64,000 nt of DNA from an uncultured Lachnospiraceae bacterium (GTDB lineage: Bacteria; Bacillota; Clostridia; Lachnospirales; Lachnospiraceae), in assembly GCA_902774915.1 (NCBI GenBank), contig CACYKH010000002.1:229902-293901 (forward strand), in the 5' to 3' direction. Below are positions 3,573-21,926 of this stretch, piece by piece (the stretch's first letter is position 1; the number at the start of each line of letters is the position of its first letter). Position numbers and translations under genes: made by a program. Under the pieces are notes generated by a model. It saw nothing but the letters and a program-made list of their open reading frames with translations, searched no databases and had not been told where the DNA came from.

Positions 3573-3586
3573 CTAAATACCTCTTC

Positions 3587-4183: not shown

Positions 4184-4195
4184 ACAATCCCCCTA

Positions 4196-4741
4196 TTATT
4201 TTGGATATTTATTACGGATGGCAATAGCCTCTTCAATCAAGGACTCAATATTTTCTTTAATATCATCGTATACCAACTCACTACTCTGATATATTGAATC
4301 AAAAGTTCTGCAAATAGTTGCCAAATTCACCTCATTTGCATCTGCTGGCTCTTCATTTAATCCAATATAATTAAATGTCTTATCAATACAAAATTGTTTA
4401 AACGGATTTCTTCCTTTTGAATCTTGCTCACCTTTACTATTTTTTAACTTGTTAATATATACACCAACTATCCCCTTGCCTCTCTTCCAAGCTTGTTCAA
4501 TTTCATATTGAACCCACCTTCTAGATGCTGTTTCACTTCCTATCAACACTACTACGCAAGATCTCATGTCAAGTTCTTTGTCAATCCATGCTTTAATGGC
4601 AGAATCATTTTTTAATCTTACTTTCTCCCAACTATTATCAGAAAATAATTCTTGCCCTTCTATAGTGCCTATATTACGAATTTGCCCAACTCTCCATACA
4701 TCATTTCCAAAATGAAAACAAAAAAACACCTGTCTTTTCAT
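4196..4741 (-). CDS. thsB: ThsB-like TIR protein (Thoeris-type, DUF1863/MTH538 family)
   Basis: The N-terminus MKRQVFFCFHFGND followed by WRVGQIRN is characteristic of the TIR-like family that includes the Thoeris sensor/synthase ThsB. SCVVVLIGSETASRRWVQYEI follows in two adjoining parts, with Glu80 as candidate catalytic residue, and the length of 181 residues fits. In Thoeris, ThsB detects phage and makes a cyclic ADP-ribose isomer that activates ThsA. No SIR2-SLOG or macro-domain ThsA is encoded nearby, so the partner is unclear; the small membrane protein or another TIR protein may replace it. It starts one base after the rloB stop codon, so the genes are coupled. Confidence 0.82.
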   Translation of the reverse strand: MKRQVFFCFHFGNDVWRVGQIRNIGTIEGQELFSDNSWEKVRLKNDSAIKAWIDKELDMRSCVVVLIGSETASRRWVQYEIEQAWKRGKGIVGVYINKLKNSKGEQDSKGRNPFKQFCIDKTFNYIGLNEEPADANEVNLATICRTFDSIYQSSELVYDDIKENIESLIEEAIAIRNKYPK

Positions 4742-4742
4742 A

Positions 4743-5387
4743 CTATCGTCCTTTCGCCTTTATTTCTCCCACCAGCTCATGCACCGTCGTACACGGACAC
4801 ATCTCCGATGGTTTTGTTTTACCTTCTCTTTTACACTGCTCCAGTTTCTGCTGTGCTATCTGAATTGCCTTTTCTTCGTCACCGACTTTGCAGAGTTTTC
4901 CATACATCTGCTCATCAGCCTTGGAGTATTTCTGTCCAGTCTTGGTTTCATTTACTCGTCCGAAATCTGAGCAACAAGTCCAAGAATCTTGGATTGCCGG
5001 CATAGAACCAAAGTAGGCATACATCCATATCTCAAAGCATGGATTGGACCAGCCCACTTGTATTCCTTTATCCTCTGACTCTTTTATAATTTCATCAAAT
5101 CCTTGCACTTGGTCTCTATCAAACACAATCCATGGGATTCGATACTGTGCATCATAAGCAGTGAGTTCCAGACATTTATCAATCATGATACGAGTCTTTG
5201 TCTCTACCACCTTTATTACAAGCTTGTTTCTTACATCTTCCGGCAATGCCTGATGAAGACCTGTAAAAAAGCATCGTTCCGTAGCCTCTGTATCCGTAAC
5301 AATCAAGTAGTAGCCTAATTCCGGCACCTTGAACTGTTTTCTCTGGTCTCTTGTTTTTCTATTACCTGTTCTGTCTTTTTTCGCCAT
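4743..5387 (-). CDS. rloB: RloB-family TOPRIM-like protein (AbiLii-type)
   Basis: The protein has 214 residues. The sequence shows an early acidic motif (TDTEATERCFF), WIVFDRDQ with the acidic pair typical of TOPRIM-like nucleases, and SNPCFEIWMYAYFG, the hallmark of RloB proteins. The first 20 residues are very basic. RloB works with an AAA ATPase (RloA); the pair corresponds to the AbiL abortive-infection system and is related in design to PARIS, where phage triggering releases a toxic nuclease. I chose ATG 5387 over the ATG at 5393, because the AAGGAGG site is seven bases from 5387 but only one from 5393. It follows rloA directly. Confidence 0.88.
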   Translation of the reverse strand: MAKKDRTGNRKTRDQRKQFKVPELGYYLIVTDTEATERCFFTGLHQALPEDVRNKLVIKVVETKTRIMIDKCLELTAYDAQYRIPWIVFDRDQVQGFDEIIKESEDKGIQVGWSNPCFEIWMYAYFGSMPAIQDSWTCCSDFGRVNETKTGQKYSKADEQMYGKLCKVGDEEKAIQIAQQKLEQCKREGKTKPSEMCPCTTVHELVGEIKAKGR

Positions 5388-5389
5388 AC

Positions 5390-6652
5390 TCATTCCTCCT
5401 TAAATATATCAATACTCTTTAAGGTAGGAATCGCACCATACTTTCCAATCAGGTAATTCTTCTCATAGCTTTCATCCTTACGAATACGGGAACCATCCTC
5501 ATCTACAAAGTCAGCCAGTGAATAAAGTGTTGATACACCTCTTTCATCCTTTTCTACAAACCAGATTTCGTCACGGCGTAACAACTGGTTCGATAACTGC
5601 CATGTATCATGGGTTGTAAATACAAGCTGTGCATGATTGGTGTTGATTTCCGGATTCAAGAATGTAAGTAGGAAATTCCTTACAAGTAACGGATGCAGAC
5701 GAGCATTTAATTCATCAATGAAGAACACACTGCCCTTCTCCAACACTTCCTGCAACTCCGGATATAACGCAAACATCTTCAAGGTTCCGGCAGACTCTAG
5801 TCCCAACGGAATTTCTGCCATTTCAATAGAATCTATCATCTTGTGAAGTGCGTTAATCTTGTATCTCTCTTCCTTGCTTTCAGCCTCCTGAGGAACCTTT
5901 TCAATTCTGAAATCCTTGATATGCTCATCAAAAGATGCAAAATATTCCACAACCTTCTGCTGCACATTCTTATCTTCTACAAATCCCTTCGGCAATCTTC
6001 GTGACATAAAGAAGTTGGTAAAAGGATCTCCAAAATCAGCAAACTCGTTTGCAAGGAACCAATCCCTGATTGCCTTACACTTACCAATCTTCAGCTTTGC
6101 TCCCAATGAAATAATCAGAACCTGCTTTTCCAATGCCACCTGAATATTATCTCTGCTGCTCTTAGAAAATCCTGACAAATCTAACTCTTCATCCGCTGTG
6201 TTACGATAAAATACCGTACTATATTTTCTTGCAGTTTTGGCTTTGGAATTCAGCCACTCTTCTGTCACACCTTCTTTGTTAATACAGAAACCATAATTGT
6301 ATGTTTTCTCTGCCTTATCTCCCGGCAACGTAAAATACACCTCAAAACTTGAATCAGCATCAGCAGATGTGGAATCAAATAAAAACGGGGTGGGCCTGTA
6401 TTCCTCAAACTTTTCCTCTTCATCTCCATACTTAAAAGATTCCGCAACATAGTCAGACATATATTCAAATGCGTTGTATATATTGGATTTACCGCTGGCA
6501 TTTGCACCGTAAACGGCTGCAACCGGAAGGATCTTTTCACTTCCTACTGTTACAACTCTCTCCGAAAACTCTGTCATTTTTGTCGCTGAAAGATCCAAAG
6601 TTGCTTCATCCTTAAATGATTTATAATTTTTAAAATTAAATTGTATTAGCAT
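5390..6652 (-). CDS. rloA: RloA-family AAA ATPase (AAA_15, AbiLi-type)
   Basis: A 420-residue SMC/OLD-like ATPase. FNFKNYKSFKDEATLDL at the N-terminus and Walker A GANASGKSN (about 49-57) are typical of AAA_15/AAA_21 proteins. Walker B VFFIDELNARLHP is near residue 307, and TTHD, the switch His/Asp, follows. It is the sensor or energy-dependent scaffold for RloB in AbiL-like systems. It is the first gene of the defence operon, with a good sigma-A promoter 34 bases upstream of the ATG. Its operon continues through rloB and three TIR genes with gaps of 1-14 bases. No truncation is seen. Confidence 0.9.
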   Translation of the reverse strand: MLIQFNFKNYKSFKDEATLDLSATKMTEFSERVVTVGSEKILPVAAVYGANASGKSNIYNAFEYMSDYVAESFKYGDEEEKFEEYRPTPFLFDSTSADADSSFEVYFTLPGDKAEKTYNYGFCINKEGVTEEWLNSKAKTARKYSTVFYRNTADEELDLSGFSKSSRDNIQVALEKQVLIISLGAKLKIGKCKAIRDWFLANEFADFGDPFTNFFMSRRLPKGFVEDKNVQQKVVEYFASFDEHIKDFRIEKVPQEAESKEERYKINALHKMIDSIEMAEIPLGLESAGTLKMFALYPELQEVLEKGSVFFIDELNARLHPLLVRNFLLTFLNPEINTNHAQLVFTTHDTWQLSNQLLRRDEIWFVEKDERGVSTLYSLADFVDEDGSRIRKDESYEKNYLIGKYGAIPTLKSIDIFKEE

Positions 6653-6685
6653 AATCCTGTCCTCACATCCTTCTTTCCTAACTAT

Positions 6686-6713
6686 ATTATATCCATTTTC
6701 TCATAATAATCAA
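6686..6713 (-). promoter_or_regulatory. Sigma-A promoter of the defence operon
   Basis: On the minus strand, TTGATT (-35, 6708-6713) and TATAAT (-10, 6686-6691, a perfect match) are separated by 16 bp. The site is upstream of rloA and downstream of a bidirectional terminator, so it is the likely single start of the six-gene operon. Confidence 0.75.
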
Positions 6714-6756
6714 CACCTAAATGTGATATTTTCTCATTTCACTGTATTTTCCATAT

Positions 6757-6782
6757 AAAAAAGAGCCATTTGGCTCTTTTTT
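6757..6782. terminator. Symmetrical (bidirectional) terminator between defence operon and IS
   Basis: An 11-bp perfect inverted repeat (A6-GAGCC / GGCTC-T6) with a 4-base loop. It has a T-run on both strands and could stop transcription from either side. It shields the rloA promoter from read-through and touches the left end of the insertion sequence. Confidence 0.75.
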
Positions 6783-6887
6783 AGGGTATACCAACTTTTT
6801 TAGGGGCTGTATTCGTTAGGGGCATTCATTAGGGTTTTTCAGTAGGGGCAAACTTTAGGGTCTGGTTTTAGGGTCTAACATTAGGGG
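6782..6887 (+). repeat. Left-end iteron array of TAGGG units
   Basis: Eight TAGGG pentamers start at 6782, 6801, 6817, 6830, 6843, 6856, 6870 and 6882. The middle ones are exactly 13 bp apart. The unit TAGGGTTTTTCAG at 6830 recurs exactly in the right end. They are probably transposase-binding sites. Confidence 0.85.
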
Positions 6888-6900
6888 TTATACTTTTTAT

Positions 6901-6934
6901 AGAGCATTCGATTAAGTTCGGATGCTCTTTTTAG
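6901..6934 (+). terminator. Plus-strand terminator upstream of the transposase
   Basis: AGAGCATTCG and CGGATGCTCT pair as a 10-bp stem with one G-T wobble, followed by TTTTT. It would stop read-through from outside the IS into the transposase gene, a common self-restraint device in insertion sequences. A second hairpin (GGGAGG / CCTCCC, 6945-6964) follows without a T-run. Confidence 0.65.
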
Positions 6935-7018
6935 CATTACAAAAGGGAGGACTATTGCCCTCCCCAGCCTGCTTTCATTATTATTAACTTGCGGATAAAT
7001 CAAACGAAAGGAGGCTAT

Positions 7019-8464
7019 ATGAATAGTATCACAGATTTATTAGACTTAGAAGATGAAGATATCTTTATATCTGATACATCCATTAAGGATAATGTTAAAA
7101 CATTGACCCTAGAAACTCATTTGACCAGTCACTACTGTCCTTGCTGTGGCTTCAGAATGCACTCAAGAGGAGTTAAAACTAGAAAAGTTAATCATCCTAT
7201 ACTTCAGGATGGTTACGAACTTATTCTTCTTCTCAAACAAAGAAGGTGGCGATGCACCAATCCTGATTGTCTTTACGAAACAAATGATGAATTCCGCTTT
7301 GTTGATAAAAACAGAAGAAATACAAATGCAGCTGATATACTAATAATAAACGCTTTTAAAGATTTATCCGCATCAGCATCTTCTATCGCAGAGCGTTATA
7401 ACACTTCTGACACTCATGTCCTCAACATCTTTGACAAATATATGAAGCTTGATAGACTTCCTCTATCTGACATCATTTCTGTCGATGAGGTATTCCTAAA
7501 CATGGATCCATCACATAAGTATGCACTTGTAATACAAGATTTCTATACTGGAGATCCTATCGATCTTTTAAAAAGCAGAAAGACAAATGTAACTGAACCT
7601 TATTTTACAAGTATCCCTGTCGAAGAAAGATATGCTGTCAAATATCTCTTAACAGATATGTATAAACCATACCTCAGATATATAGATAAGTTCTTTCCTC
7701 GAGCTGTACCTATTGTGGATTCATTTCACGTTGTCCAGTGGGTAAATCGCGAAATAGATAACTATATACGGCAACTTATAAAGAAATATAAACAAAGGGA
7801 TAGAGAGTTACAGGAACAGAAATCATTAGAATACTACCGACCAATAGAACTTCCCCTATCTCATGAGGTATACATTCTACAAAAATACAAGTGGTTAATT
7901 CTGGCCAATCAAGAAAATATTACCTACCACCTTGAGACACGTATGGATCAACATTTTCATGCACTTATGAATACCTATGATTACGAAAAATATTTATTTA
8001 GAATCGATCCACGTTTAAGAACCTTAAGAGATTTAAAAGAAAAATACGTAACCTTTAATGAAAGAAACGCTGGCAAGCCATCTACAGCAAAAAAGGAAAT
8101 AGAGCAACTAATAACCGAATACTTCAACTCCAAAGATCCCATCTTTATTAGCTTTGCCAGTCTGTTACGCAGGTATAAAGAACCCATTATCAACTCATTT
8201 ATTATGGTTGAGAAACACGGTCCTGGAGGAATCTACGGCAGCAGACTTTCAAATGATCCAATAGAATCTTTGAACAGAAAAGTAAAGGACCTAAAAAGAC
8301 AGGGGCGAGGTTATAGATCATTTGAACATTTCAGGAATAGGTTCCTATACGCCACAAGAAATAGACCTATTCTAGATGGACGTTCTGAAGGTAAACATAT
8401 ACAGTATTATTCTTACGAAGATTCAATGGAAGGGATAAATTATGTTGAAAAAGAGGAAGATTAA
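7019..8464 (+). CDS. ISL3-family DDE transposase
   Basis: A full-length 481-residue transposase. The N-terminus has a zinc-binding region (CPCCG at 40-44 and RCTNPDC near 79-84). The catalytic triad is readable: Asp156 in ISVDEVFLNMD, Asp234 in PIVDSFHVVQW and Glu416 in SNDPIESLNRKVK. The ATG at 7019 has AAAGGAGG at ideal spacing; an upstream in-frame TTG gives no better site. The gene is intact, so the element may still be mobile. The array of repeated units at both ends is the likely binding substrate of its zinc-finger and helix-turn-helix part. Confidence 0.93.
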   Translation: MNSITDLLDLEDEDIFISDTSIKDNVKTLTLETHLTSHYCPCCGFRMHSRGVKTRKVNHPILQDGYELILLLKQRRWRCTNPDCLYETNDEFRFVDKNRRNTNAADILIINAFKDLSASASSIAERYNTSDTHVLNIFDKYMKLDRLPLSDIISVDEVFLNMDPSHKYALVIQDFYTGDPIDLLKSRKTNVTEPYFTSIPVEERYAVKYLLTDMYKPYLRYIDKFFPRAVPIVDSFHVVQWVNREIDNYIRQLIKKYKQRDRELQEQKSLEYYRPIELPLSHEVYILQKYKWLILANQENITYHLETRMDQHFHALMNTYDYEKYLFRIDPRLRTLRDLKEKYVTFNERNAGKPSTAKKEIEQLITEYFNSKDPIFISFASLLRRYKEPIINSFIMVEKHGPGGIYGSRLSNDPIESLNRKVKDLKRQGRGYRSFEHFRNRFLYATRNRPILDGRSEGKHIQYYSYEDSMEGINYVEKEED

Positions 8465-8772: not shown

Positions 8773-9873
8773 TTATTTATTCATACCCCCATTTAAAACA
8801 TCCAATGAATTCTCTGTTAAATACTCCTTTGCATACAAGAAATAGATATCCCCATTAATTCTTGTAACTTCATATAACCTTACTCCGCCTATTTTATCAT
8901 AGTCTCCAATCATTTCATTGTCTTTTGATATAAGATTCCATTCTTTATCATATACTGCATAGTATATTTGTCCGGCCATATATGATTCACCAACAGATTT
9001 CTTATCACAACTATACCAAAGTGTATAATAATTTCCTTCAGTCCATATACTCGCCATTTCATGATCTGCATCATTAGGGAGAAGTTCTTTGGGGGCATTC
9101 CACTCTTTTCCTTCTGAATCTTTTGATTCTATAACTTTGAGGCATGAACAACCTTTATCATAATCCTCATATTCAAATAAAACAGAAAAATGATCATCAT
9201 TATATAAGATATCAATATCTTCCGTATTATGATAATTATCTTGAATAACTGCTATGTCTTCCCATGAATCAGAACGTCCTAAATCAGAATCTTTCTTTGC
9301 TCTCCACATATGCAATTTATACTCACCATTTATATCTGGAGCATCGTCTTCTGAAAATGGAGTTGAATTATTAACAGTTCCAATTATTTCAGTAAATGTA
9401 ATGTAGTAATAATCTTTTACTTTTATTATAGTTGGATCAATACAAAGATTATCACATTGATAGATGATATTATTTGCCTCAAGATTGTACGAAATATCAG
9501 TTTCCGAAACTTTCGCTATACCAACTTGATTACTGGAATTACCATAAATAATAAGTCCCTCATCCTCTAGCGAGTCTATCCAATTGACAGACACTTCAGG
9601 GAAACTAGCAACAATGCTTCTATCGAGATTCATAATGGTTAATACCCCATCTACACCAGCTATAATATGATCATTCATAAATTTTGCATCATTACTATGA
9701 ACCGGAGTATCACTCTCGTACAACTCAACTGAAACATCAGAATAATCAGGAATAGAAGAAGTAACTTCCACGTCCTTGGTTCCACATGCAGAGAATGAAA
9801 ACATCAAACTGATAGCACATAAAAAAAATAAAATTCGTTTTTTTATACTTTTAGTATTCTTAATCATTTTCAT
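8773..9873 (-). CDS. Secreted lipoprotein, possible beta-propeller glycan-binding or glycosidase-like protein
   Basis: A lipoprotein signal peptide is clear: basic start, hydrophobic core and lipobox FSAC with Cys30. The mature part (about 335 residues) has repeated strand-rich units with Asp and aromatic residues (for example VKDYYYITFTE, NYYTLWYSCD, GDIYFLYAKEY). This pattern resembles five-bladed GH43/GH32-type propellers. I cannot identify a catalytic triad, so binding or trimming of the glycan is only a guess. Its ATG overlaps the stop of the LicD gene by one base, placing it in the phosphonate/LicD operon. Confidence 0.7.
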   Translation of the reverse strand: MKMIKNTKSIKKRILFFLCAISLMFSFSACGTKDVEVTSSIPDYSDVSVELYESDTPVHSNDAKFMNDHIIAGVDGVLTIMNLDRSIVASFPEVSVNWIDSLEDEGLIIYGNSSNQVGIAKVSETDISYNLEANNIIYQCDNLCIDPTIIKVKDYYYITFTEIIGTVNNSTPFSEDDAPDINGEYKLHMWRAKKDSDLGRSDSWEDIAVIQDNYHNTEDIDILYNDDHFSVLFEYEDYDKGCSCLKVIESKDSEGKEWNAPKELLPNDADHEMASIWTEGNYYTLWYSCDKKSVGESYMAGQIYYAVYDKEWNLISKDNEMIGDYDKIGGVRLYEVTRINGDIYFLYAKEYLTENSLDVLNGGMNK

Positions 9874-10769
9874 TAATAATCCAATTCTGAATATGACACC
9901 TTAGGTATTCTCTTTTCAGGTGGTGGTGGTGTCATATAGTCATTGTACATATGTTTCAAGAAACCATCAGCATCCTTTGTTCCATAAAACTTATAACCTT
10001 CAAAATCATATTCTTCGAGTTCTAGAAACCATCTCTTGGGCATACTGAATCTCTCTTTCAAAGGATTCTTTACATAAAGCTTACCAAAAGATGGGAAGAG
10101 AAGATTCCTAACTCGATTAGTAGTTTTGTTATTACTTCTCTTTCTATATTTTTCAGTTTTCTCAAAAACCTTCTCTATTGAAATATGAGATAAGCACTTA
10201 TAATTAAATTTTTTAATCGGATTAGTATATGTATCCTTAGCAACCTGAGCCCAAAGGGTTTTTCTTTTAAAGTAAAGATCTATATCCTGAATTATCTGTC
10301 CTATCACAGACTTTGGAACATCATCAAGAGGAAAGATATCTATGTAGACTCCATTTTTGCATCCCACTGCATCCTGACCAGTCCTCATATGAGTTGTTCC
10401 GGTCTTTCTAATCTTCCCATATCCCCACAAATATTTAGGGTCAGTTTTATGATCTTGGAAGAAACAGATTTCAGGATTTAGCTCATCAGCCACTTCGCGA
10501 AACTTGTTGTATTCTTCTCTAAGCATTGCTATGTCGGCATCATCATCCCATGGGATATAACCTTTATGACGTACAGCTCCAAGAAGAGTACCACAAAAAA
10601 GAGAGTACTTTATATTGTGTTTTCTACACACTCTATCAACCTCTTTTATAAGTTCAAGTTCAACTAACTGAAGGCGACGAAACTCTCCTTCTGAAAGTTT
10701 CTCATCATCTTTTTTATGAACCATTACCTGATTTAGATTTGTAAGTAATCTTTCTTCACTTGCATCCAT
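9873..10769 (-). CDS. LicD-family phospho-substituent transferase
   Basis: The LicD signature is clear: FCGTLLGAVRHKGYIPWDDDADIAM around residues 58-82, quoted here by its key residues Gly-Thr, Arg-His and the acidic cluster WDDDAD. The protein has 298 residues, within the usual range. LicD proteins move phosphocholine or similar groups from a CDP carrier to sugar residues. Next to PEP mutase and CMP-phosphonate genes, the donor here could be a CMP-activated phosphonate; this is inference. It starts after a TAGGAG site, 10 bases downstream of the phosphoesterase gene. It is one of three LicD genes in this block. Confidence 0.88.
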   Translation of the reverse strand: MDASEERLLTNLNQVMVHKKDDEKLSEGEFRRLQLVELELIKEVDRVCRKHNIKYSLFCGTLLGAVRHKGYIPWDDDADIAMLREEYNKFREVADELNPEICFFQDHKTDPKYLWGYGKIRKTGTTHMRTGQDAVGCKNGVYIDIFPLDDVPKSVIGQIIQDIDLYFKRKTLWAQVAKDTYTNPIKKFNYKCLSHISIEKVFEKTEKYRKRSNNKTTNRVRNLLFPSFGKLYVKNPLKERFSMPKRWFLELEEYDFEGYKFYGTKDADGFLKHMYNDYMTPPPPEKRIPKVSYSELDY

Positions 10770-10779
10770 AAATAAACTC

Positions 10780-11514
10780 CTAAACTCCCGTTACCAAACG
10801 AGACTTATAAAAACCATCTACCTCATCACTAAATAACTCCAAAACCTTCTCTATATCGTACGGAACTGACCTCATGTCAACATGCATAGTCATTGTATCC
10901 AGGATGGAATACTGCGCATTCTTATTGTGATTTCTAGGTTGTCCCACAGAGCCCGGATTTATAAAGAGTACCTTATGCTTATTTCTCATCTTCGGATTAT
11001 CAGCGTCATAAAACTTAGTAAACATATGAGAGTAATGAGAATGTCCAGAAAATACTATATCATACGCTGAGTAATCGCCTTTCTCATCCCCTGGAAAAAT
11101 CGATTTCCAGTAATTATCTTCAATAGAACCATGCACAGCCAAACATTTAAGCCCATCAAGTTCAAATTCATACTTTCCAGAATGGTTCACTTCATTATTT
11201 AGATAATCCAATGTATCATTTAAAAGAATAGACCTTGTATACTTAGCAGAATCTACACCTCTCTGAGACGAGAAATTGGAGTAATCAGATAGCATAATAG
11301 CTCTTTCGTGATTACCCCAAATGTTGCATAGAATCTTATATGGAAATTTATTTCTTAAATAATCCACAACATCGTTAGACTGTGGACCATAGTCTATAAA
11401 ATCACCAAGGAGAATCACTCCAGTGATTTCTCCTTGGTTTGCTAAATCATTCATTACTTCTTGTAAAGCCACCATGTTTCCATGGATGTCAGAAATTATC
11501 GCATATTTAGACAT
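10780..11514 (-). CDS. Calcineurin-like metallophosphoesterase
   Basis: A 244-residue protein with the complete two-metal phosphoesterase motif set: SDIHGN (residues 8-13), LGDFIDYGP, GNHERA, VHGS and SGHSHY. It resembles the YfcE/MJ0936-like phosphodiesterase group. The setting between LicD and the PEP-mutase fusion suggests that it acts on a phosphorylated or nucleotide intermediate of the same pathway, or recycles one, but no substrate can be read from sequence. The start has AGGAGT eight bases upstream, and it lies 8 bases after the upstream gene. Confidence 0.87.
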   Translation of the reverse strand: MSKYAIISDIHGNMVALQEVMNDLANQGEITGVILLGDFIDYGPQSNDVVDYLRNKFPYKILCNIWGNHERAIMLSDYSNFSSQRGVDSAKYTRSILLNDTLDYLNNEVNHSGKYEFELDGLKCLAVHGSIEDNYWKSIFPGDEKGDYSAYDIVFSGHSHYSHMFTKFYDADNPKMRNKHKVLFINPGSVGQPRNHNKNAQYSILDTMTMHVDMRSVPYDIEKVLELFSDEVDGFYKSRLVTGV

Positions 11515-12892: not shown

Positions 12893-15136
12893 TTATCTGG
12901 AGAAAATAGCCTGATACAGCGATTCAATATCATCAAGCGTTAGTTCAATAGGATTGTTGTTTAATCTCACTGGATTAACAGAATTCTTTAATATTTCATA
13001 CTGTTCTTCTGTTGGTTTTGGAACACTTAGCTCCAACTCTTCTACAAGGTCCTCAAAATACTTCGTAGCATCTTTTGCCGACTGAACACCCATTGCATTG
13101 GCAATCTGTATAAATATATCTTCCAGATAACCCTTTCCCCTTTCATCTACGGTCTTTTCCAGATGCTCTACCATAAAAGGAAAGAGCTTTCTATTACAAA
13201 GAGCCGCAGCATGACCATGTGCTATTCCAAAAAGACTTGTTATTTTGTAACACATAGCATGTCCACCTGTAGTCTGAGTTATATTAATCGCCTTACCCGC
13301 TATATTAGCAGCCTTAAGCATAGCTAAGTTAGAATTCTTATCATTGTTTAAATAACCATCTTTATTCTTGATTATTTCCTGAATTGCTTTTCTTGAATAT
13401 TCCCTACTCTTCTCAGTACTGTTTACTGACCAAAAACTCTCTATAGCGTGACAAAGAGCATCCATCATTGTTGATTTCTTTTGGTACGAAGGAAGAGTTT
13501 CCAGTGTTGATGAGTCCATTAGAACTAGTTCTGGTATACAACTAGCGTCAGTAATAGACTGTTTTTCTCTCTTGTAATATAAAACCGCAAACCTAGTAGA
13601 CTCCGAACCAGTTCCTGCAGTAGTTGGGACAGCCATCAGATGCACGTCATTTGGCACAATCTTCTGCTCCAAATAATTCTTGCTGCCATCCATATTGGAA
13701 TAAAGTTTAATACACTTAGCCGTGTCAATAGCGCTTCCTCCGCCTACAGCCATTATTCCGTCACAACCATTCTCATGGAATAAATTTACCCCTTCAACTG
13801 CAGATTCATAATCCGGATTAGGATGAAAATCGCTAAAGGTTGTTACTTTTATACCAAGTCTAGCACTTAGATTGTCAAAATAATCCTTAATCTTAAGGAA
13901 TTTAAGAGAATCATCATGAACCAAAAGTATACTCTTAAGTTTGTTCTCCTGAATATAGCCATCTATCTCAGCGTAGTTTTCACTCGCCTCAAGTACTCTC
14001 TGATTAGCAAAAATGTTCTTTTCAACTTTTTTATCTATAGACTTATATTTTTCCTCATCAGAATATGGATATTCAACAAGTCTTCCTCCATATGTTGCAA
14101 GGATCAAAACAACCTCTTCTCTTATAGGTTTCTGAAATCCCTCTACCCAGTCATCACCATGAACAACAATATCAGGTTTGTATTTTTCAAGATTATCCTT
14201 ATAAGAAAGTGTATCCTGTTCTACAACTCGGTAAACACCTACTATATTTTCAAACATATCCTTTCTATCACTTGCAGGAAGAACTGTAGCTCTTCTATAT
14301 CCAGCAATAGCTTCGTCAGAGAGTATACCTATAGTAAGCCTGCCAAGCCTGCGCGCTTTCTTTATAAGTCTTATATGTCCAGAATGTATGATATCTGTTG
14401 CAAAACACATATATACATCTCGTGATTCTACTTCTCGTAGTTTCGCTGACATAACTGCCAAATCTTCTGGATTATCAACCTCTCCGCACAGAGAATCTTC
14501 AACGTCAAGAAGTCGTATATCTAAATCATGAGCAACTTCGTTAAGTGCATTCTCAGCATAACATCCAGTCGTTCCATTCTCGCAGTATTCAATTATCTTT
14601 TCCAGCCAAACTTTCCAATCCTTCTTTAGCAGCTTATAAAGAGGCTGAGCAGCCATAGCATCATTGAAGAATTCAATTCCAACCTTCAGTATTTTTCCGT
14701 CTGATATAACGGCTTTAAAATCTTTTTCTGGAAGCTCAAGTGTAGAACTAACTGTCATACAGCTGGTTTCAGAATTAATCACCTTATCAAAAACTTCATT
14801 TTCAAATACAAGATCACCGTGCATAAGAATAATATCGTCATCTAAATATTCTTTTGCACAGTAAATAGAATATATGTAGTTTGTTTCTGCAAACTTTGGA
14901 TTTTTAACAAAAGTTATATGGATGGGAATGTTGAGACTATCACAATAATTAACCAAAACACTTTCAAAACAACCTGTAGTCATAACAACTTCATCTATAC
15001 CAACTTCACTCAGTTGACGAAGCTGTCTACTTAGGATAGTTTCTCTAGGTGATATTTCAGTCATACACTTTGGATGTTCAGATGTGAGAACACCCATACG
15101 ACTTCCCATTCCAGAATTAAGAATTAAAGCTTTCAT
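12893..15136 (-). CDS. Triple fusion: sugar nucleotidyltransferase, cytidylyltransferase, iron-type alcohol dehydrogenase (phosphonoacetaldehyde reductase candidate)
   Basis: Three domains are readable. Residues 1-~235 are a LicC/GT-A nucleotidyltransferase (NSGMGSRMG at 7-15; HGDL at 106-109). Residues ~240-370 are a TagD-like cytidylyltransferase (IIHSGHIRL, 249-257; HGDDW, 326-330). Residues ~395-747 are a group III iron-type alcohol dehydrogenase (GGGSAIDTAK, 465-474; DALCHAIES and GIAHGHAA metal ligands). With PEP mutase next door, the dehydrogenase probably reduces phosphonoacetaldehyde to 2-hydroxyethylphosphonate, and one transferase makes its CMP ester. No transaminase for aminoethylphosphonate is present. 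The 747-residue length reflects the fusion, since each part alone is a complete enzyme. The presence of two nucleotidyltransferase folds is unexplained. Confidence 0.9.
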   Translation of the reverse strand: MKALILNSGMGSRMGVLTSEHPKCMTEISPRETILSRQLRQLSEVGIDEVVMTTGCFESVLVNYCDSLNIPIHITFVKNPKFAETNYIYSIYCAKEYLDDDIILMHGDLVFENEVFDKVINSETSCMTVSSTLELPEKDFKAVISDGKILKVGIEFFNDAMAAQPLYKLLKKDWKVWLEKIIEYCENGTTGCYAENALNEVAHDLDIRLLDVEDSLCGEVDNPEDLAVMSAKLREVESRDVYMCFATDIIHSGHIRLIKKARRLGRLTIGILSDEAIAGYRRATVLPASDRKDMFENIVGVYRVVEQDTLSYKDNLEKYKPDIVVHGDDWVEGFQKPIREEVVLILATYGGRLVEYPYSDEEKYKSIDKKVEKNIFANQRVLEASENYAEIDGYIQENKLKSILLVHDDSLKFLKIKDYFDNLSARLGIKVTTFSDFHPNPDYESAVEGVNLFHENGCDGIMAVGGGSAIDTAKCIKLYSNMDGSKNYLEQKIVPNDVHLMAVPTTAGTGSESTRFAVLYYKREKQSITDASCIPELVLMDSSTLETLPSYQKKSTMMDALCHAIESFWSVNSTEKSREYSRKAIQEIIKNKDGYLNNDKNSNLAMLKAANIAGKAINITQTTGGHAMCYKITSLFGIAHGHAAALCNRKLFPFMVEHLEKTVDERGKGYLEDIFIQIANAMGVQSAKDATKYFEDLVEELELSVPKPTEEQYEILKNSVNPVRLNNNPIELTLDDIESLYQAIFSR

Positions 15137-15141
15137 ACTAT

Positions 15142-16329
15142 TTACTTTCTTTTCTCTAACTGAGGATTAATTATTTCGTCTATAATAAATTTTGCTGTTT
15201 CTTCTATCTTGTCATATGGAACTTCTTTTGGAAGTGTAGTTCCAAAAGCATTCTGTGCCTTTTCAATAAGCTCGTCTGTATAAATAAGTTTTCCATCTCG
15301 AACATCTTCTATACCGTCAAGGTACATAGAAGTTCTATCAGCCTTATTCATTTCTTCATATGAGAAATCACTCTCATCAATCCATGTATCGATGGAACCA
15401 TATCTGTATCCAACGATTACAGGATATCCACCTATCTCACCAAAGACACCAGGTGAAAAGATTTTTTTATCTTTCCCTGTTCTTATAGTCTCGATGATAG
15501 CGCTTATTATCTGATAATTGCTGGAAGCATTCATCATATTTCTCTGAGCATCAACAGGCATTGAGATTTTACATCTGCTAAAAATCTCATTTTGATCTAT
15601 ATCTTTTAATTCATCTCTGTAATAAACCTTAAGAGGAAGTTCAACCCCTTCTGTCTGGCCTTCCTTGCTAATGCATACATCATGGAAGTGACCAGCCGCA
15701 AAACTTACTTTGACATTCCAGAAATCCTTTATACCAAGGATATCAGCAACTGCATATCTGATACGTGGAACTAAGTGGTTGAGGTTTCCTGAACCAAAAT
15801 CAGGATATGCCTTTCCCGCACTCTTAAGCCAAGGAATAACAGCATCTGAGTATGATGTGTTGATTACTATCGCATTGGTATCAGCCTTTTCGCAAGCTTC
15901 CATTATATTCTTTGTAAATCTTATAGAAAGTGGGCTCCAGATACCGTATGCTCTAACATTTGCCCAAGATATACTTCCATATTTAAGTCCAGGATATGCA
16001 CGACTAGAATTCACTATAAAGTCTGGCTCATGCTTTTCAATAGCTTTGGTTATGCTATCTATATCATTAAGGTCTACATCTGCTTCAATCTCTATCTGAG
16101 ACTTATTAACCTCTCTGATAGTTCCAGCAACGCGGACAATATTTACATTCTGCTCCATCTTAGCATAGTTTCTTCCTACAACCACTACACTAATAGCCTT
16201 GTCATTTCTGCTGATCAGATAATCAAGTAGATAAGTACCTACACTACCAAGACCTATGATCATTATTTTTATATTATCTGAATTTACATGTTTTTCGACA
16301 ATGCGCAGTCTTTCATTTAAAGCTTTCAT
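15142..16329 (-). CDS. NAD(P)-dependent dehydrogenase-like protein, uncharacterised
   Basis: A Rossmann fold is evident (IMIIGLGSVGTYLLDYLI near residues 22-39), followed by an overall layout like saccharopine dehydrogenase or related reductases. Near the middle is SFAAGHFHD. No close named family is recognised. It sits between two nucleotidyltransferase genes in the phosphonate block, 5 bases from the triple fusion, so a role in making or modifying the phosphonate or its acceptor sugar is likely but unproven. I chose ATG 16329, which overlaps the upstream stop as ATGA and has GGGAG eight bases before it. The longer frame starts at a TTG inside that ribosome-binding site. Confidence 0.75.
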   Translation of the reverse strand: MKALNERLRIVEKHVNSDNIKIMIIGLGSVGTYLLDYLISRNDKAISVVVVGRNYAKMEQNVNIVRVAGTIREVNKSQIEIEADVDLNDIDSITKAIEKHEPDFIVNSSRAYPGLKYGSISWANVRAYGIWSPLSIRFTKNIMEACEKADTNAIVINTSYSDAVIPWLKSAGKAYPDFGSGNLNHLVPRIRYAVADILGIKDFWNVKVSFAAGHFHDVCISKEGQTEGVELPLKVYYRDELKDIDQNEIFSRCKISMPVDAQRNMMNASSNYQIISAIIETIRTGKDKKIFSPGVFGEIGGYPVIVGYRYGSIDTWIDESDFSYEEMNKADRTSMYLDGIEDVRDGKLIYTDELIEKAQNAFGTTLPKEVPYDKIEETAKFIIDEIINPQLEKRK

Positions 16330-17096
16330 TCTTCGTTCTCCCAAAACTTTTTTATATTCTTATAGTCATCTCTTGTATTACAGTTTGTCCACCTCGTCAG
16401 GTTGATTATCTTAGGTTCCTCTGAAAGATTATCAAGATAATTCTGTATAATTATAAGATTAGTTCCATCCTTTGCCTCAGCGTAGAATCTTTGATTAGCT
16501 TCTTTTAGGATATCTATCTTATTAAACTTCCAACACTGACCTGAGTTTAAAATTACAGAAAATGGATCATCTATCTTAAGAAGTCCATGACTACTATTAA
16601 AGGCATACTTGTAATTATCGCTTCCATCCCTATAAAGCACTACCGCCTTATTTGCATATATAGGCTCCGGACTGGTTGTGAGAACAGTACCCTTAGTTTT
16701 AATTACTGTATTCATAGATTCTTTATCTATATCAAGGTCACCCTCAACAAAAAGTATATCCTCTATATCTGAATACTCAAAGGCTTTACATAGACCCATG
16801 TACAAGCTGTACCCTGAAGCCAAATCCTCATAATGTTCGTTATATACTAAATCTATTTTCTCTTTAATATCAGAAGGAAGTACCTCGTCTATATATTTCT
16901 TATAATCATCATACTTATATCCACCAACAACCACTACTCTGTCAGCGTAATTACACTTAGCAACCATATGATAGAACAAAGTATCTTTACCGGATCCATC
17001 TTCCGAATATATCGCTTTCAGTTTCTTTTCTGATTCAGGTATTCCATCATTAAATCTGCTGGATATACCTGCGTTAGTAATTATTGCAATCCTCAT
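16326..17096 (-). CDS. LicC/MobA-like nucleotidyltransferase
   Basis: A 256-residue GT-A-fold nucleotidyltransferase. The N-terminus IAIITNAGISSRFND matches the nucleotide-binding loop with an altered glycine pattern. A KKLKAIY lysine follows, and EGDLDID provides the metal-binding acidic residues near residue 118. It probably activates a phosphorylated alcohol or sugar with CTP or another NTP. Its stop overlaps the start of the dehydrogenase by 4 bases, and it begins one base after the SDR gene, so the three are tightly coupled. The substrate is unknown. Confidence 0.75.
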   Translation of the reverse strand: MRIAIITNAGISSRFNDGIPESEKKLKAIYSEDGSGKDTLFYHMVAKCNYADRVVVVGGYKYDDYKKYIDEVLPSDIKEKIDLVYNEHYEDLASGYSLYMGLCKAFEYSDIEDILFVEGDLDIDKESMNTVIKTKGTVLTTSPEPIYANKAVVLYRDGSDNYKYAFNSSHGLLKIDDPFSVILNSGQCWKFNKIDILKEANQRFYAEAKDGTNLIIIQNYLDNLSEEPKIINLTRWTNCNTRDDYKNIKKFWENEE

Positions 17097-17097
17097 T

Positions 17098-18105
17098 TTA
17101 TTCCACGCTCTTTAAATAATTTTCTAGGCATTCATCAAGACCCTTTTCAAGATCAATGGCTGGTTTCCAGGAAGTTCTGGTTCTTATCTTCTCTGTTGAA
17201 AGAAGTCTTCTTTCTGGATCAGACTCTCTGTAACCATCAAACTCAATAACAGGATTTTCTATTCCCATCTTGGCTGCACATTTCTTCGCAAGATCAATAA
17301 TAGAAATCTCTTCATCTGTTGCAACATTATAAACTGTTCCATCTAATGCACTATCTGTATTTGCAAGAGCAAGAACCGCACTACAACTATCATAGTTATT
17401 AAGGAATGTACGACGGTTTTTACGACTATTCTCTAGAAGAACAACCTTGCCGTTATCCTTGAAACTATTGATAATGAATGGAATGATATGCTTAGGATAT
17501 CTTTCATTCTTACTATAAACATTTGCAAATCTTATTGAACATCCAAGAATCTTTCCTTCATCTACTGCATCCTTCATAAAGAATTCTGTAAGAAGCTTTC
17601 CTGTTGCGTAACTTGTTCTCTGACTATGTTCAGCAACAGCCATTGTAATAAAGTCAGATTCTTTTACTCCACCATTTTCATTCCATGAATTCATAGAATA
17701 AACCTCTGAGGTAGAGCAGTTGATATACTTTTTAGCACCAACTTCTATAGCCTGACTAAGGAAGTTGTTCATTCCAACTACGTTTGTTTCATAGGTTTCA
17801 TATACATGATAAAAATGTTCCGTATGAACTACTGCTGCACAGTTGATATAAATAGCTTCATCAAACTGATCAATTATAGCAGATACTTTTGATTTGATAT
17901 CAGCCATATTGTCAGCATTATTAATATCATACTCATAGAAGTCGAACCGCTCGTCACCTATTAAATCAGCAACGGTTTCAATTGATGAGGCATAGAAGTT
18001 ATCAAAACCAATAATCTTAACTTCATCCTCACCAGCAAGGAGCTGTCTAACAAGCTCATTACCAGTCATTCCAGTTACGCCACTAATTACATACAGTTTT
18101 TTCAT
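17098..18105 (-). CDS. Extended SDR (NAD-dependent sugar epimerase/dehydratase)
   Basis: A 335-residue short-chain dehydrogenase of the extended class. The N-terminal GVTGMTGNELV is the NAD-binding glycine motif, and YATGK is the catalytic Tyr-Lys pair, with CSTSEVYS supplying the Ser/Thr. The fold matches nucleotide-sugar epimerases and 4,6-dehydratases, but the exact reaction cannot be decided from sequence. It lies 4 bases downstream of a LicD gene. AGAGGATAATGGA precedes the ATG. Confidence 0.82.
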   Translation of the reverse strand: MKKLYVISGVTGMTGNELVRQLLAGEDEVKIIGFDNFYASSIETVADLIGDERFDFYEYDINNADNMADIKSKVSAIIDQFDEAIYINCAAVVHTEHFYHVYETYETNVVGMNNFLSQAIEVGAKKYINCSTSEVYSMNSWNENGGVKESDFITMAVAEHSQRTSYATGKLLTEFFMKDAVDEGKILGCSIRFANVYSKNERYPKHIIPFIINSFKDNGKVVLLENSRKNRRTFLNNYDSCSAVLALANTDSALDGTVYNVATDEEISIIDLAKKCAAKMGIENPVIEFDGYRESDPERRLLSTEKIRTRTSWKPAIDLEKGLDECLENYLKSVE

Positions 18106-18109
18106 TCCA

Positions 18110-18979
18110 TTATCCTCTCATTTCTGTTCCATCTATAAAACGAATGTATTCTGCTGCTTGGTTCCACCTCTCCGATTCTGGAGGTAGAGTCATATAATCT
18201 GGTCCATATGCTTTTGTCATATATTGTTTGTATCCAGATGTAATAGGAATTGTAGTATCTTCAAAAGGCACCCTTGTTGTATTTTGTAACCAACTCTTTT
18301 TATAGATTTTAAATCCATCTGAAGCAACCACTACATATCCCGTTTCATTATCTTTATAAGCAGTTAGTATTTCATCATATCTTCTTGCCAGTTTTTCAGG
18401 TGTTAATCTAAAGATCTTTGTCATCAGTTTAACAGTTGATTTAACTAAATATTTAAGTTTTCCACTAAGACCTTTTTCATATACGATTATTTTATCGCAT
18501 ACAGATACTGTGTAGAAGGCTTTTATTACAGTTATCTTTCGGCGCATTTTATTAAGAATTCTGTTATCTAGTGGAACATTATAGTATGGAAATACCTCAA
18601 CAAAGATTCCCATATTATCTTTACCTTCAGCCGTCACTATAGCTGAAGAAAAACTCGAATCCCTATAATAATATTTTGTGACAAAGCTATAAAAATCTCC
18701 CGGGTTCTTTTCAGGAGCATAAAGACCATACTCCTTAAATTCATCATCCGGGATCTTCAGAAACTTCTCATAGTCGGAATAAAGCATTCCCAGATCCATA
18801 TCATCATCCCACGGAATAAAACCCTGATGACGAATCGCCCCCAGCTGAGTTCCCCCTGCCGCAAAATATGTAATATCATATTTCTCACAGAGAGCATCAA
18901 AGCTTTTTAAAACAGTTACAATATCTTTCTGTAGTTTTTTTAAATCTTCTGGATCATATTTTTTATACTGGGTTACCAT
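18110..18979 (-). CDS. LicD-family phospho-substituent transferase
   Basis: A LicD protein of 289 residues, with GGTQLGAIRHQGFIPWDDDM as its core motif. It is predicted to place a phospho-substituent from a CDP or CMP donor on the glycan. I chose ATG 18979 over a start at 19012: an AAGGGC site sits correctly before it, and its residues MVTQYKKYDPEDLKKLQK align with the starts of the other LicD genes here. Even so, it overlaps the end of the flippase gene by 17 bases. It is about 2.1 kb from the third LicD gene, with the flippase in between. Confidence 0.87.
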   Translation of the reverse strand: MVTQYKKYDPEDLKKLQKDIVTVLKSFDALCEKYDITYFAAGGTQLGAIRHQGFIPWDDDMDLGMLYSDYEKFLKIPDDEFKEYGLYAPEKNPGDFYSFVTKYYYRDSSFSSAIVTAEGKDNMGIFVEVFPYYNVPLDNRILNKMRRKITVIKAFYTVSVCDKIIVYEKGLSGKLKYLVKSTVKLMTKIFRLTPEKLARRYDEILTAYKDNETGYVVVASDGFKIYKKSWLQNTTRVPFEDTTIPITSGYKQYMTKAYGPDYMTLPPESERWNQAAEYIRFIDGTEMRG

Positions 18980-20252
18980 CTTTTTGCCCTTCTTTATATC
19001 TGTGTATATCATAAAGAATTATTACTGCATAAATGATCATAAGTACCACTTCTGATATAACTAATGAATAGCTTCCTCCATTTTGTCCAAATCTATGGAT
19101 AAGAGGTTGATTAATAACAAAGTTAAGCACAAATGCAATCACTACACCTACTATCAGCTGTGTAGACTCTCTTATAGCTATTAATATTCCCGCAAAGAAC
19201 CATACACTTGCATATAGGAAAGTACACCATATAAGTGGAAGTAGCAGGTCATCATGACTCGCTATCTTCGAATTATAAAGTAATTCCAAAGCCCAGTGTC
19301 CGAGGAAGTGGCCTGCTGCAGTAAGTACTATGAACCCCGCTATTATCACAAGGATTATTTTCTTTAAGTATCCTACGAACTTTTTCTTATTTCCATCAAG
19401 GTATGTTTTAGCTATACCAGGAAGGAATGGGGAATAAATGACACTTGCAGTTAGCTGTATTATTATTGTTGGTGATGCAATGGTTGAGTAAACACCTAAA
19501 TCTTCAACACCACAGATATCTTTTATGCTTACTCTAACAACCGTTGCCAGAGACGCTGACATAAAGTAATAAACCACAAGCTTAGAACATGCTTTAAGCA
19601 GTCTCCAAACCTTTTTATTCTTTAGTGTGAATCCTATCTTTCCTAAATCCACAATTTTACGGGTCATTCTCTTATCATAGAATTCAAGTATAGCGAAATC
19701 ACAAAGAGCCATTACTATAAATGTAATATACAGTTCCTGTGTTAATAAGAATACCCCCACAAAAGCTATAAGTTGGAGAGTACCCCTAGCTATAAAGGAT
19801 TTTCCTATTACGTCAAATCTCCAGTTAACCTGGAGAACACCCTGATAAACATCCTCAGTAGAATCTACCATTCTGATGATCATATATATCAAAATACAGA
19901 TTACTTCTTTAGGCGAGGATTTGATTGCTATAGAATAAACAACACACGCCAGATATGCCACAAGGCATGTAATACGGCGACTAAGTATGTAATTCTCATT
20001 TGTATAGACTTTCTTGATATCTGATATCTGAAAGCTTCTCATTCCAAAGGATCCAATGCTTGTGAAAGAATTTGTTACCGTCATGGCAAGTCCAAAAACA
20101 CCCACTTGCCAATAGTCATCTGTCATATAGATAATCACAACGGTCATGACCCACTGACAGAAAGCATAATAAACACTTCCCACAGTGTTCCACATTATGC
20201 TCTTTCCAAGAACGCCCTTATCTGTGATTTCAACACTATTATTATCAGCCAT
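18963..20252 (-). CDS. wzx: Wzx-type oligosaccharide flippase (block 3)
   Basis: A 429-residue polytopic protein with about 12 predicted membrane helices and the general layout of the PST/MATE-like flippase family. It would move lipid-linked repeat units across the cytoplasmic membrane. It is placed among LicD and glycosyltransferase genes, so the LicD-modified unit is the likely cargo. A second Wzx (26663-27943) and an ABC exporter (44778-47561) show that this locus carries three export systems. GAGGCG precedes the ATG. Confidence 0.85.
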   Translation of the reverse strand: MADNNSVEITDKGVLGKSIMWNTVGSVYYAFCQWVMTVVIIYMTDDYWQVGVFGLAMTVTNSFTSIGSFGMRSFQISDIKKVYTNENYILSRRITCLVAYLACVVYSIAIKSSPKEVICILIYMIIRMVDSTEDVYQGVLQVNWRFDVIGKSFIARGTLQLIAFVGVFLLTQELYITFIVMALCDFAILEFYDKRMTRKIVDLGKIGFTLKNKKVWRLLKACSKLVVYYFMSASLATVVRVSIKDICGVEDLGVYSTIASPTIIIQLTASVIYSPFLPGIAKTYLDGNKKKFVGYLKKIILVIIAGFIVLTAAGHFLGHWALELLYNSKIASHDDLLLPLIWCTFLYASVWFFAGILIAIRESTQLIVGVVIAFVLNFVINQPLIHRFGQNGGSYSLVISEVVLMIIYAVIILYDIHRYKEGQKDGNPV

Positions 20253-20265
20253 TAATTACGCCTCA

Positions 20266-21123
20266 TCACTCTTTAATCCCAAAGTCCAACTTGTATGGAT
20301 AATGGTTCTTTCTTTTTTCCTTTGGTGGAAGCTGCATAAAGTCCCCAAAGGCTCTTTCAAGGCTCTTCTCAACCTGTCCTGGAAAATTAAGATCTATATC
20401 TTCGAATCTAATAGTTCTAAGTGGATATACCTCATCCACATAATAGACACTAGTGTATGCGGTTGTATCGCATATAAATCCAAATCTCTTTGTATCTCCT
20501 TTTCCATTATACTGTCTGCTGGTAGCAAGACACATCTTGTGAAGCCATTTCTTAGATACCTTAAATGTCTTAAGGAACCAATGGATTATACCACAAATAA
20601 AAGTAATAATTTTTGCCAATAATCCTCCCACAGGGAGTACAGGATCCGGAATACTTCGAAGTATTAAAAGTTTACTCCAAAAAAATGATTGTACAGCCTG
20701 TCTCTTTACCTTCTTTTCATCATCTGGTATCTGATCAAATGGATATATATCAAGGAATATACCATTTGGACAATCAACATCCTTCATTGGCCACTCTACA
20801 AACTCCGTCCCTTTCATAGTCCAGCGCGTTGTGAGGAATGGGAAGTTAGGATATTCCACTCCATTTACTATTAAATACTTGTCTGAATATTCTTTCTTTG
20901 CAATTTTCAAAAACTTCTCATAATCATCTCGAGGAAGGGCTATATCTATATCATCATCCCATGGTATAAAGCCACTATGCCTAATAGCTCCTATAGCTGT
21001 TCCACCCACGCCAAAATAAGTGAGATTGTGCCTATCACAAAGATCAACAAAATCTCTGAGAATTTCTAATTCAATTGACTGTAACTTTTTTAAAGTTTTT
21101 TCATCATAAAATTTTCCTAACAT
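20266..21123 (-). CDS. LicD-family phospho-substituent transferase
   Basis: Contains GGTAIGAIRHSGFIPWDDDI, the LicD core, near residues 43-62. The length of 285 residues is usual. The ATG at 21123 has AAAAGGAAT before it and is preferred over an upstream in-frame GTG. It is a third LicD paralogue. Having several LicD proteins suggests several acceptor residues or several phospho-substituents on the same glycan. It lies 13 bases upstream of the flippase gene. Confidence 0.88.
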   Translation of the reverse strand: MLGKFYDEKTLKKLQSIELEILRDFVDLCDRHNLTYFGVGGTAIGAIRHSGFIPWDDDIDIALPRDDYEKFLKIAKKEYSDKYLIVNGVEYPNFPFLTTRWTMKGTEFVEWPMKDVDCPNGIFLDIYPFDQIPDDEKKVKRQAVQSFFWSKLLILRSIPDPVLPVGGLLAKIITFICGIIHWFLKTFKVSKKWLHKMCLATSRQYNGKGDTKRFGFICDTTAYTSVYYVDEVYPLRTIRFEDIDLNFPGQVEKSLERAFGDFMQLPPKEKRKNHYPYKLDFGIKE

Positions 21124-21143
21124 AACTATTCCTTTTAAGCGCA

Positions 21144-21926
21144 CTATACTTTATTTGACTTTTCTGAATTGCTATAGAGCTTACATATTATTTTAGCTAT
21201 TGGAACAGGCCAGAATTTTCGAAACATTTCATAATCTTCATGACCTCTTGAATTATCTTCAATAATTTCCGTTGTTGTCGAACCCTCATGAATTCTATGT
21301 CCCATAAGAAGCTTATGGCAATAGCAAAAGGCTCCTTTTTGCCTAGATAGTCTCTCCCAGGTTTGCCAATCAAGATTACTTAGCATTCCTTCTTCAAAAA
21401 TAGGAAGTTCAAGTCTTCCCTTAGCATAAGTAACTGATGGACAGCAAATACCATTACCTAAAGAAATAGGAAATCTTTTTCCAAAAGAAGTTTTTCGGAT
21501 TAGAGGAAAGCATAATGGTAATGAAAGAATCCTCTTTATCATAAGATTACCATTCTTTTTTATCTTTTCATCATTGCGTATTTCATAATAATCAGTACAG
21601 CATATTAAAGAGCTATCATCTTTTTCTAATTCTTTTAATACGTTTGATGTATAAGACTTTTCATAAATATCATCTTGATGTGCTATTGTCACATACTCAG
21701 TATCCGCTGATTCAAGAGCAAAATTCCAATCACGTGCAATATCTGACTCATGATTTGCAACCTTAATCTCTAAATCATATTTAGAAGCAAGACTTCTAAT
21801 ATAATCATTATCTGTTGATGTTGCAATATAAACCACGCTCTTAACAGACTGACTTAAAACTGTCTTAATACACTCTTCAAGATAAGGACTTTCCTTATAT
21901 GCACATATAACAAATGAATGTTTCAT
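21144..21926 (-). CDS. Family 2 glycosyltransferase
   Basis: A GT-A glycosyltransferase of 260 residues: SFVICAYKESPYLEECI at the N-terminus, HQDDIYE (metal-binding Asp) near residue 99 and DWQTWERLSRQKG as the acceptor-side Asp-containing motif. It is a paralogue of the gene at 24022-24828, which shares WERLSRQKG and the C-terminal RFWP-IAK pattern. It is cytoplasmic or peripherally membrane-bound and adds one sugar to a lipid-linked unit. The donor is unknown. Confidence 0.85.
   Translation of the reverse strand: MKHSFVICAYKESPYLEECIKTVLSQSVKSVVYIATSTDNDYIRSLASKYDLEIKVANHESDIARDWNFALESADTEYVTIAHQDDIYEKSYTSNVLKELEKDDSSLICCTDYYEIRNDEKIKKNGNLMIKRILSLPLCFPLIRKTSFGKRFPISLGNGICCPSVTYAKGRLELPIFEEGMLSNLDWQTWERLSRQKGAFCYCHKLLMGHRIHEGSTTTEIIEDNSRGHEDYEMFRKFWPVPIAKIICKLYSNSEKSNKV

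Follow-up and report, generated by a model that had tools for sequence, protein, structure and literature searches.

PEP mutase forms phosphonopyruvate, from which Ppd makes phosphonoacetaldehyde. Tailoring of bacterial surfaces with phosphonates is mostly discussed in terms of aminoethylphosphonate (AEP) (PMC6697681); esters of 2-hydroxyethylphosphonate (HEP) on marine polysaccharides are also known. PntC-AEPT (Tde1415; structures 6pd1 and 6pd2; PMC6697681) joins an N-terminal LicC-like cytidylyltransferase to a phosphonoacetaldehyde-acting enzyme, a C-terminal class V aminotransferase. In Tde-PntC, Glu104 and Glu196 are described as positioned for binding of the AEP amine, with Lys25 stabilising charge (PMC6697681). 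According to the same source, the fusion partners of PEP mutase are PF12804, PF01467 or the two combined, and the combination PF12804, PF01467 and PF13714 was counted in 42 proteins. Fom1 of fosfomycin biosynthesis (5x3d) has a cytidylyltransferase (CyTase) with HxGH and HGDDW motifs, for which HEP is the reported substrate. Phosphonoacetaldehyde reductases include PhpC and AlpJ, the latter called an iron-dependent alcohol dehydrogenase (PMC9381506, PMC8976061), and in a Methanocorpusculum PPM/PPD/adh1 cluster PEP mutase, Ppd and a reductase are found together (PMC10035134). TauF (6jko; PMC6616044) reduces sulfoacetaldehyde, the sulfonate analogue, at a D–H/Q–H–H metal site.

The window (the whole stretch of 64,000 nucleotides that was analysed, one end of a contig from an uncultured Lachnospiraceae bacterium) encodes a protein, P0001, in which a PntC-like domain, a Fom1-type CyTase and an iron-type alcohol dehydrogenase (Fe-ADH) follow one another in a single chain (Table 1). 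The three-domain, 747-residue fusion described in the earlier note is real and is read on the minus strand; the open frame runs from 15136 to 12893, and the plus-strand translation of this interval contains 26 stops. Pfam matches, all above the gathering score, lie in the order PF12804 (residues 3–121, 7.7e-9), PF01467 (248–342, 3.1e-15), Fe-ADH PF00465 (382–541, 8.5e-36) and PF25137 (555–744, 3.1e-24). The nearest solved structures by sequence are LicC 1jyk (4e-10) and PntC-AEPT 6pd1 (5.1e-8) for domain 1, the Fom1 CyTase 5x3d (5.5e-32) for domain 2 and 6jko (1.8e-28) for domain 3. The earlier note had in effect equated PntC with the TagD-like domain, which is wrong: PntC is in the LicC-like family, and for the TagD-like domain the Fom1 CyTase is the nearest match. 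An AlphaFold2 model has a mean pLDDT of 90 and a pTM of 0.58; the modelled domains appear good, and their relative placing is unsure. Foldseek with this model returns 6jko first, and since the 50 best matches listed are all dehydrogenase-containing chains, the fold calls for domains 1 and 2 come from sequence matches. An assembly accident is unlikely, because the same order in one frame is also present in five other assemblies.

Table 1. Features of P0001 and its neighbourhood, in positions of the window; G461 is the genome that carries the unfused form described in the text.
Feature	Position	Strand	Basis
P0001: PntC-like/Fom1-type CyTase/iron-type alcohol dehydrogenase fusion, 747 aa	12893..15136	minus	Pfam, solved-structure sequence matches
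P0001 LicC/PntC-like nucleotidyltransferase domain, residues 1–232	14441..15136	minus	Pfam, alignment
P0001 His106 codon, aligned with PntC Glu104 (near AEP amine)	14819..14821	minus	alignment
P0001 cytidylyltransferase-like domain, residues about 237–376	14009..14428	minus	best match Fom1 CyTase 5x3d
HSGH motif of P0001 middle domain	about 14375–14386	minus	sequence
P0001 iron-type alcohol dehydrogenase, residues 377–747 and stop	12893..14008	minus	Pfam, fold match
CyTase–PEP mutase fusion, 431 aa	11523..12818	minus	PEP mutase over TIGR02320 cut-off
Metallophosphoesterase-like gene	10780..11514	minus	63% match beside CyTm–PEP mutase in G461
LicD-family gene, candidate CMP-phosphonate transferase	9873..10769	minus	58% match in G461
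SDR-like gene, 400 aa	15142..16344	minus	72% match in G461
DUF6564 gene	16326..17096	minus	PF20202; 60% match in G461
SDR epimerase/dehydratase-like gene	17098..18105	minus	83% match in G461
Second LicD-family gene	18110..19012	minus	family match
Third LicD-like gene	20266..21144	minus	NF045866 100 bits, below cut-off 225

As with PntC-AEPT, P0001 has an N-terminal LicC-like domain and an enzyme predicted to act on phosphonoacetaldehyde, but the C-terminal part is an Fe-ADH, a reductase instead of the class V aminotransferase, a Fom1-type domain lies between the two, and His stands in the place of Glu104. Its first two domain families are those of the PEP mutase triple fusions (PMC6697681), whereas its third domain is a dehydrogenase and PEP mutase is encoded separately, in a CyTm–Ppm gene. 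Fom1 has neither the LicC-like domain nor the dehydrogenase; P0001 shows the PF01467 match, HxGH (as HSGH) and HGDDW, is not fused to PEP mutase and has YSDEEKY in place of the GISSTR stretch. PhpC and AlpJ, likened by description, carry out the reaction proposed here for P0001, and the Methanocorpusculum cluster is likened to the locus in the same way; in the parts of those papers that describe them, PhpC, AlpJ and adh1 are not presented as nucleotidyltransferase fusions, unlike P0001. TauF shares with P0001 the metal site and an analogous small anionic aldehyde; it differs in its sulfonate substrate and, by alignment, in Phe252 and Phe265, which correspond to Ile617 and Tyr630.

In the adjoining CyTase–PEP mutase gene, the PEP mutase scores 403.9 bits with TIGR02320 (cut-off 319.55); another PF13714 match in the source genome reaches 31.5 bits, at the cut-off, over positions 1–102 of 240. 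Ppd (TIGR03297, 470 bits against a cut-off of 312.5) is encoded on the same strand as P0001 at G000:C2:223976–225049, about 5 kb outside the window, which starts at 229902, and about 16 kb from PEP mutase. Since PEP mutase and Ppd are both present, the source genome is expected to make phosphonoacetaldehyde. The known route from there to AEP, a PhnW/AepZ transaminase, was not found in the source genome (98.89% complete) with the AEP transaminase model TIGR03301; no match exceeds the cut-off of 360.8 and the best has 26.5 bits. The PEP mutase gene has a CyTase half that deviates from the consensus at five of 28 conserved columns, including R100H and G94P (Fom1-segment numbering), the most among 20 CyTm-type rows (next, four), a suggestive sign that this half may be losing function beside the second CyTase in P0001. 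Inspection by eye of the region separating PEP mutase from Ppd (2403–8464) suggested TIR-like genes, ATPase genes and an ISL3-type transposase.

The SDR-like gene has its stop five bases ahead of the P0001 start. It overlaps the DUF6564 gene (15142–17096), and the pair, kept together in G461, could, as a guess, supply the glycan with an activated sugar or polyol. PF20202 matches the PntC-like domain of P0001 as well as the DUF6564 gene. Three LicD-like genes lie within 10 kb of P0001. Farther along, at 39106–44775, methyltransferase and glycosyltransferase parts appear by eye to be joined in a protein of 1889 aa.

The search for the same domain order elsewhere, which the earlier note had proposed, found it in one frame in five other genomes. 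GTDB species genomes were scanned with the P0001 dehydrogenase as the seed and the best 80 loci were taken; PntC–CyT–ADH in one frame of 756–770 aa was seen at five of them (L067–L071), three being close kin (L069–L071), and a Pfam run on three of the five showed the order in all three. A commoner arrangement than the one-chain fusion, at 72 of the best 80 loci, is PntC–CyT–Ppm with a separate dehydrogenase; Ppd lies within the stretch at 69 of these 72, a joint presence of pathway genes that is partly due to selection, as the loci were found through likeness to the dehydrogenase or to P0001. In the PEP mutase triple fusions read at these loci, PntC is 55–77% and CyT 50–73% like that of the window. 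Three loci have neither arrangement (L079, L142 and L143), and the dehydrogenase reads in two frames at L098 and L137. At E 1e-60, 22 of the 397 genomes of the family match P0001, and at E 1e-40 eight of the 61 of the genus, the source genome alone having an unbroken match over residues 1–747. One genome (G089) has PntC–CyT–Ppm with no dehydrogenase match, either at E 1e-60 or within a 13.5-kb stretch.

L079 is an unfused form, PntC–CyT (378 aa) followed by the dehydrogenase. Its genome carries CyTm–Ppm, a metallophosphoesterase, LicD, two SDR-like genes, DUF6564 and Ppd (G461:C47), and the PEP mutase part of its CyTm–Ppm is 90% like that of the window. In L056:8906–10690 (G123), a 594-aa protein joins PntC directly to the dehydrogenase and adjoins a stand-alone PEP mutase and Ppd; this protein is a closer parallel to PntC-AEPT than P0001 is. 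Another fusion of pathway parts, a 945-aa protein in L036:5651–8488 (G313) with an N-terminal Fe-ADH match (8–143) and a LicD domain (497–718), sits between a dehydrogenase and a PntC gene. An apparent four-domain PntC–CyT–Ppm–ADH chain, with frames of 1054–1066 aa in G022, G029 and G188, was rejected, a stop codon parting two genes; an open frame of 1053 aa is likewise listed in G414.

A second operon type has a transaminase. From 58 matching rows (57 genomes), 40 transaminase stretches were fetched, and 17 contain a CyT–Ppm gene, accompanied by a PntC′ gene in 15 and by Ppd in 14; an Fe-ADH match, a distant one (31%), is present at one of the 17 and absent from the other 16. The PntC-like domain differs between the two operon types. 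By alignment, K23, E195 and H106 of P0001 correspond to Lys25, Glu196 and Glu104 of PntC. The Glu104 position is His in all 95 dehydrogenase-type rows (91 distinct, some genomes being in both locus sets). Of the 19 PntC′ rows, 17 have Glu there, one Cys and one Ala (15 of 16 Glu in CyT–Ppm loci alone). P0001 has the PF12804 match, the Lys25 equivalent and the acidic metal-site residues of PntC and lacks Glu104; with His106 in that place, an AEP-specific PntC is not claimed for it. K23, D108, E219 and D221 are present in 95 of 95 rows, and the last three may, by analogy, have a metal role. PntC′ differs elsewhere too: position 195 is Asp in 13 of 19, and position 53, Thr in 95 of 95 dehydrogenase-type rows, is Val or Ile. 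A quick tree of 51 rows, made up of 32 dehydrogenase-type rows and the full set of 19 PntC′, separates the two sets with an SH-aLRT of 100; as they are two clades, the His/Glu difference counts as one change.

The dehydrogenase domain has the D/H/H/H ligands and the GGGS stretch of iron-type alcohol dehydrogenases. The ligand positions are D559, H563, H626 and H640; the first, third and fourth are invariant in 97 of 97 distinct dehydrogenase rows, and at 563 77 of these rows have His and 20 have Gln, the same choice at one ligand as reported for TauF (PMC6616044), which is the best solved match by both sequence and fold. Among the 25 of 31 NCBIfam families listed for P0001, the dehydrogenase models all stay below their cut-offs (TIGR03405, 136.4 of 423.7 bits; SarD, 91.9 of 700). 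Five genomes have dehydrogenases 40–52% like that of the window and no PEP mutase match at E 1e-20, so the clade is not bound to phosphonate synthesis. At one of their loci, L055:8481–13212 (G227), the relative adjoins PhnC (371.6 bits, cut-off 266.1) and PhnE/PhnD-like genes below their cut-offs. These neighbours again point to a phosphonate, and the enzyme there possibly allows the use of HEP as a nutrient; ORF lists and a few scans showed no importer-type neighbour in the other four genomes.

The best explanation, and a fairly probable one, is that P0001 represents, in one chain, the HEP-forming branch of a phosphonate pathway of the cell surface, in which HEP is made and then converted to CMP-HEP for LicD. 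From pathway knowledge and the family matches, PEP mutase would supply phosphonopyruvate and Ppd, encoded just outside the window, phosphonoacetaldehyde. Judging from the context, the C-terminal dehydrogenase would use NAD(P)H to reduce phosphonoacetaldehyde, yielding HEP; the PntC-like domain at the N-terminus would combine HEP with CTP, giving CMP-HEP and pyrophosphate; and the LicD protein would place the HEP group on a surface glycan. The CMP-HEP product predicted in the earlier note is favoured by this context, namely the presence of PEP mutase and Ppd, the lack of a TIGR03301 match in the source genome and a closest solved relative that reduces sulfoacetaldehyde. The best explanation also draws on the residue difference at Glu104, on the L055 and L056 loci and on the joint presence of pathway genes; against it count G089, the two-frame dehydrogenases of L098 and L137, the NCBIfam scores, the clade members in genomes without a PEP mutase match, the transaminases of the other fusion genomes and the distance between Ppd and PEP mutase. 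The middle domain may help in the same CMP-HEP reaction or activate something else. That it is instead the domain making CMP-HEP, with the PntC-like domain activating another substrate or being a remnant, is a rather unlikely alternative. Its best solved match (5.5e-32) is a CyTase reported to make CMP-HEP (PMC6697681), and all 117 rows of the four grouped sets of middle-type domains retain the two His of HxGH, 116 of them with its Gly as well; the GISSTR letters, however, are not among the two commonest in any group of Fom1-type rows. The Fom1-type domain is moreover common to both operon types and sits on PEP mutase in the transaminase operons, and so is no mark of HEP. What distinguishes one operon type from the other is the PntC-like domain, in which the positions of Lys25, Glu196 and the aligned Asp106 show no variation across the 95 dehydrogenase-type rows; this domain is also fused to the dehydrogenase without a middle domain in L056, where no CyT match was found in the 19.5-kb stretch. 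The same two observations, on operon types and on L056, speak against the view of the earlier note that the LicC-like domain is an extra one that may load a second group.

It is improbable that P0001 serves AEP or phosphocholine activation, in the manner of Lic/Pnt systems, while the dehydrogenase reduces an unrelated aldehyde, for example for the glycan. A PntC-like domain beside LicD genes would suit such a role, Fe-ADH enzymes are broad, and related dehydrogenases occur in the five genomes without a PEP mutase match; yet no TIGR03301 match over the cut-off was found in the source genome, the residue at the amine contact is different (His for Glu104), and dehydrogenase, PEP mutase and Ppd are together at the 69 of 72 PntC–CyT–Ppm loci mentioned above. 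Least probable is a reversed dehydrogenase that oxidises imported HEP to phosphonoacetaldehyde. This direction would suit the relative at L055, which has a phosphonate importer next to it and whose genome gave no PEP mutase match, but the dehydrogenase of the window is fused to nucleotidyltransferases, adjoins PEP mutase and lies among LicD and surface polysaccharide-type genes.

The proposal of the earlier note that the dehydrogenase replaces the transaminase agrees with the context in the source genome and does not extend to the five other fusion genomes, all of which have a transaminase over the cut-off (four of the five also have Ppd). In these five of the six genomes carrying the fusion, the dehydrogenase would therefore add a branch and not replace one; we infer that HEP is branched off the AEP pathway there, while in the window the HEP branch alone is seen. 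A PEP mutase search at E 1e-20 gives exactly one match in each of the five; it exceeds the cut-off and lies in a CyTm–Ppm gene with a frame of 432–438 aa. The transaminase of L069, used as a query at E 1e-10, has relatives in three of 103 stretches, all fusion loci; in G461 and G123, no transaminase over the TIGR03301 cut-off was found. Mutual exclusion of transaminase and dehydrogenase per genome was considered, the 22 genomes matching P0001 at E 1e-60 having no overlap with the 57 transaminase genomes. The claim was dropped because five fusion genomes have both and because many transaminases are distant and have no PEP mutase nearby: 22 of the 40 fetched show only 28–35% likeness to the biosynthetic transaminase of L069, and in 21 of those 22 the stretch gave no PEP mutase match. 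The contrast is accordingly used at the operon level only.

As to the origin of the fusion, a quick tree built on 57 of the 114 PEP mutase domains places that of the window with CyTm–Ppm (SH-aLRT 90, with long branches present); its PntC–CyT, unlike its PEP mutase, is of the dehydrogenase-operon type. Most likely, the dehydrogenase replaced PEP mutase behind PntC–CyT in a lineage with an AEP-type CyTm–Ppm. The dehydrogenase tree (102 rows) needs three changes for the fusion, and a single clade is not rejected (AU p 0.096); the PntC–CyT tree (92 rows) also needs three, and a tree with the fusions held together scores better (p 0.755). The linkers differ between fusions.

No description of a PntC–CyT–ADH or PntC–ADH protein was found in the open-access literature among the matches listed, in line with the earlier note, which knew of none for the three-part order, and the word 'dehydrogenase' is absent from the main text of PMC6697681. 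The chemistry is known and so are the parts; what is new is their packing, together with the proposed residue rule. It is proposed tentatively, as something that may well prove otherwise, that PntC–CyT with a linked dehydrogenase is a widespread undescribed HEP-tailoring branch marked by His for Glu, its two cytidylyltransferase domains having different jobs. P0001 is well suited to experiments, a single chain uniting the enzyme that would make the substrate with two cytidylyltransferase folds. If CMP-HEP is made, many phosphonate clusters of the rumen and gut would belong to a hydroxyl branch predictable from one residue and one linked gene, with PEP mutase triple fusions from published counts perhaps among them.
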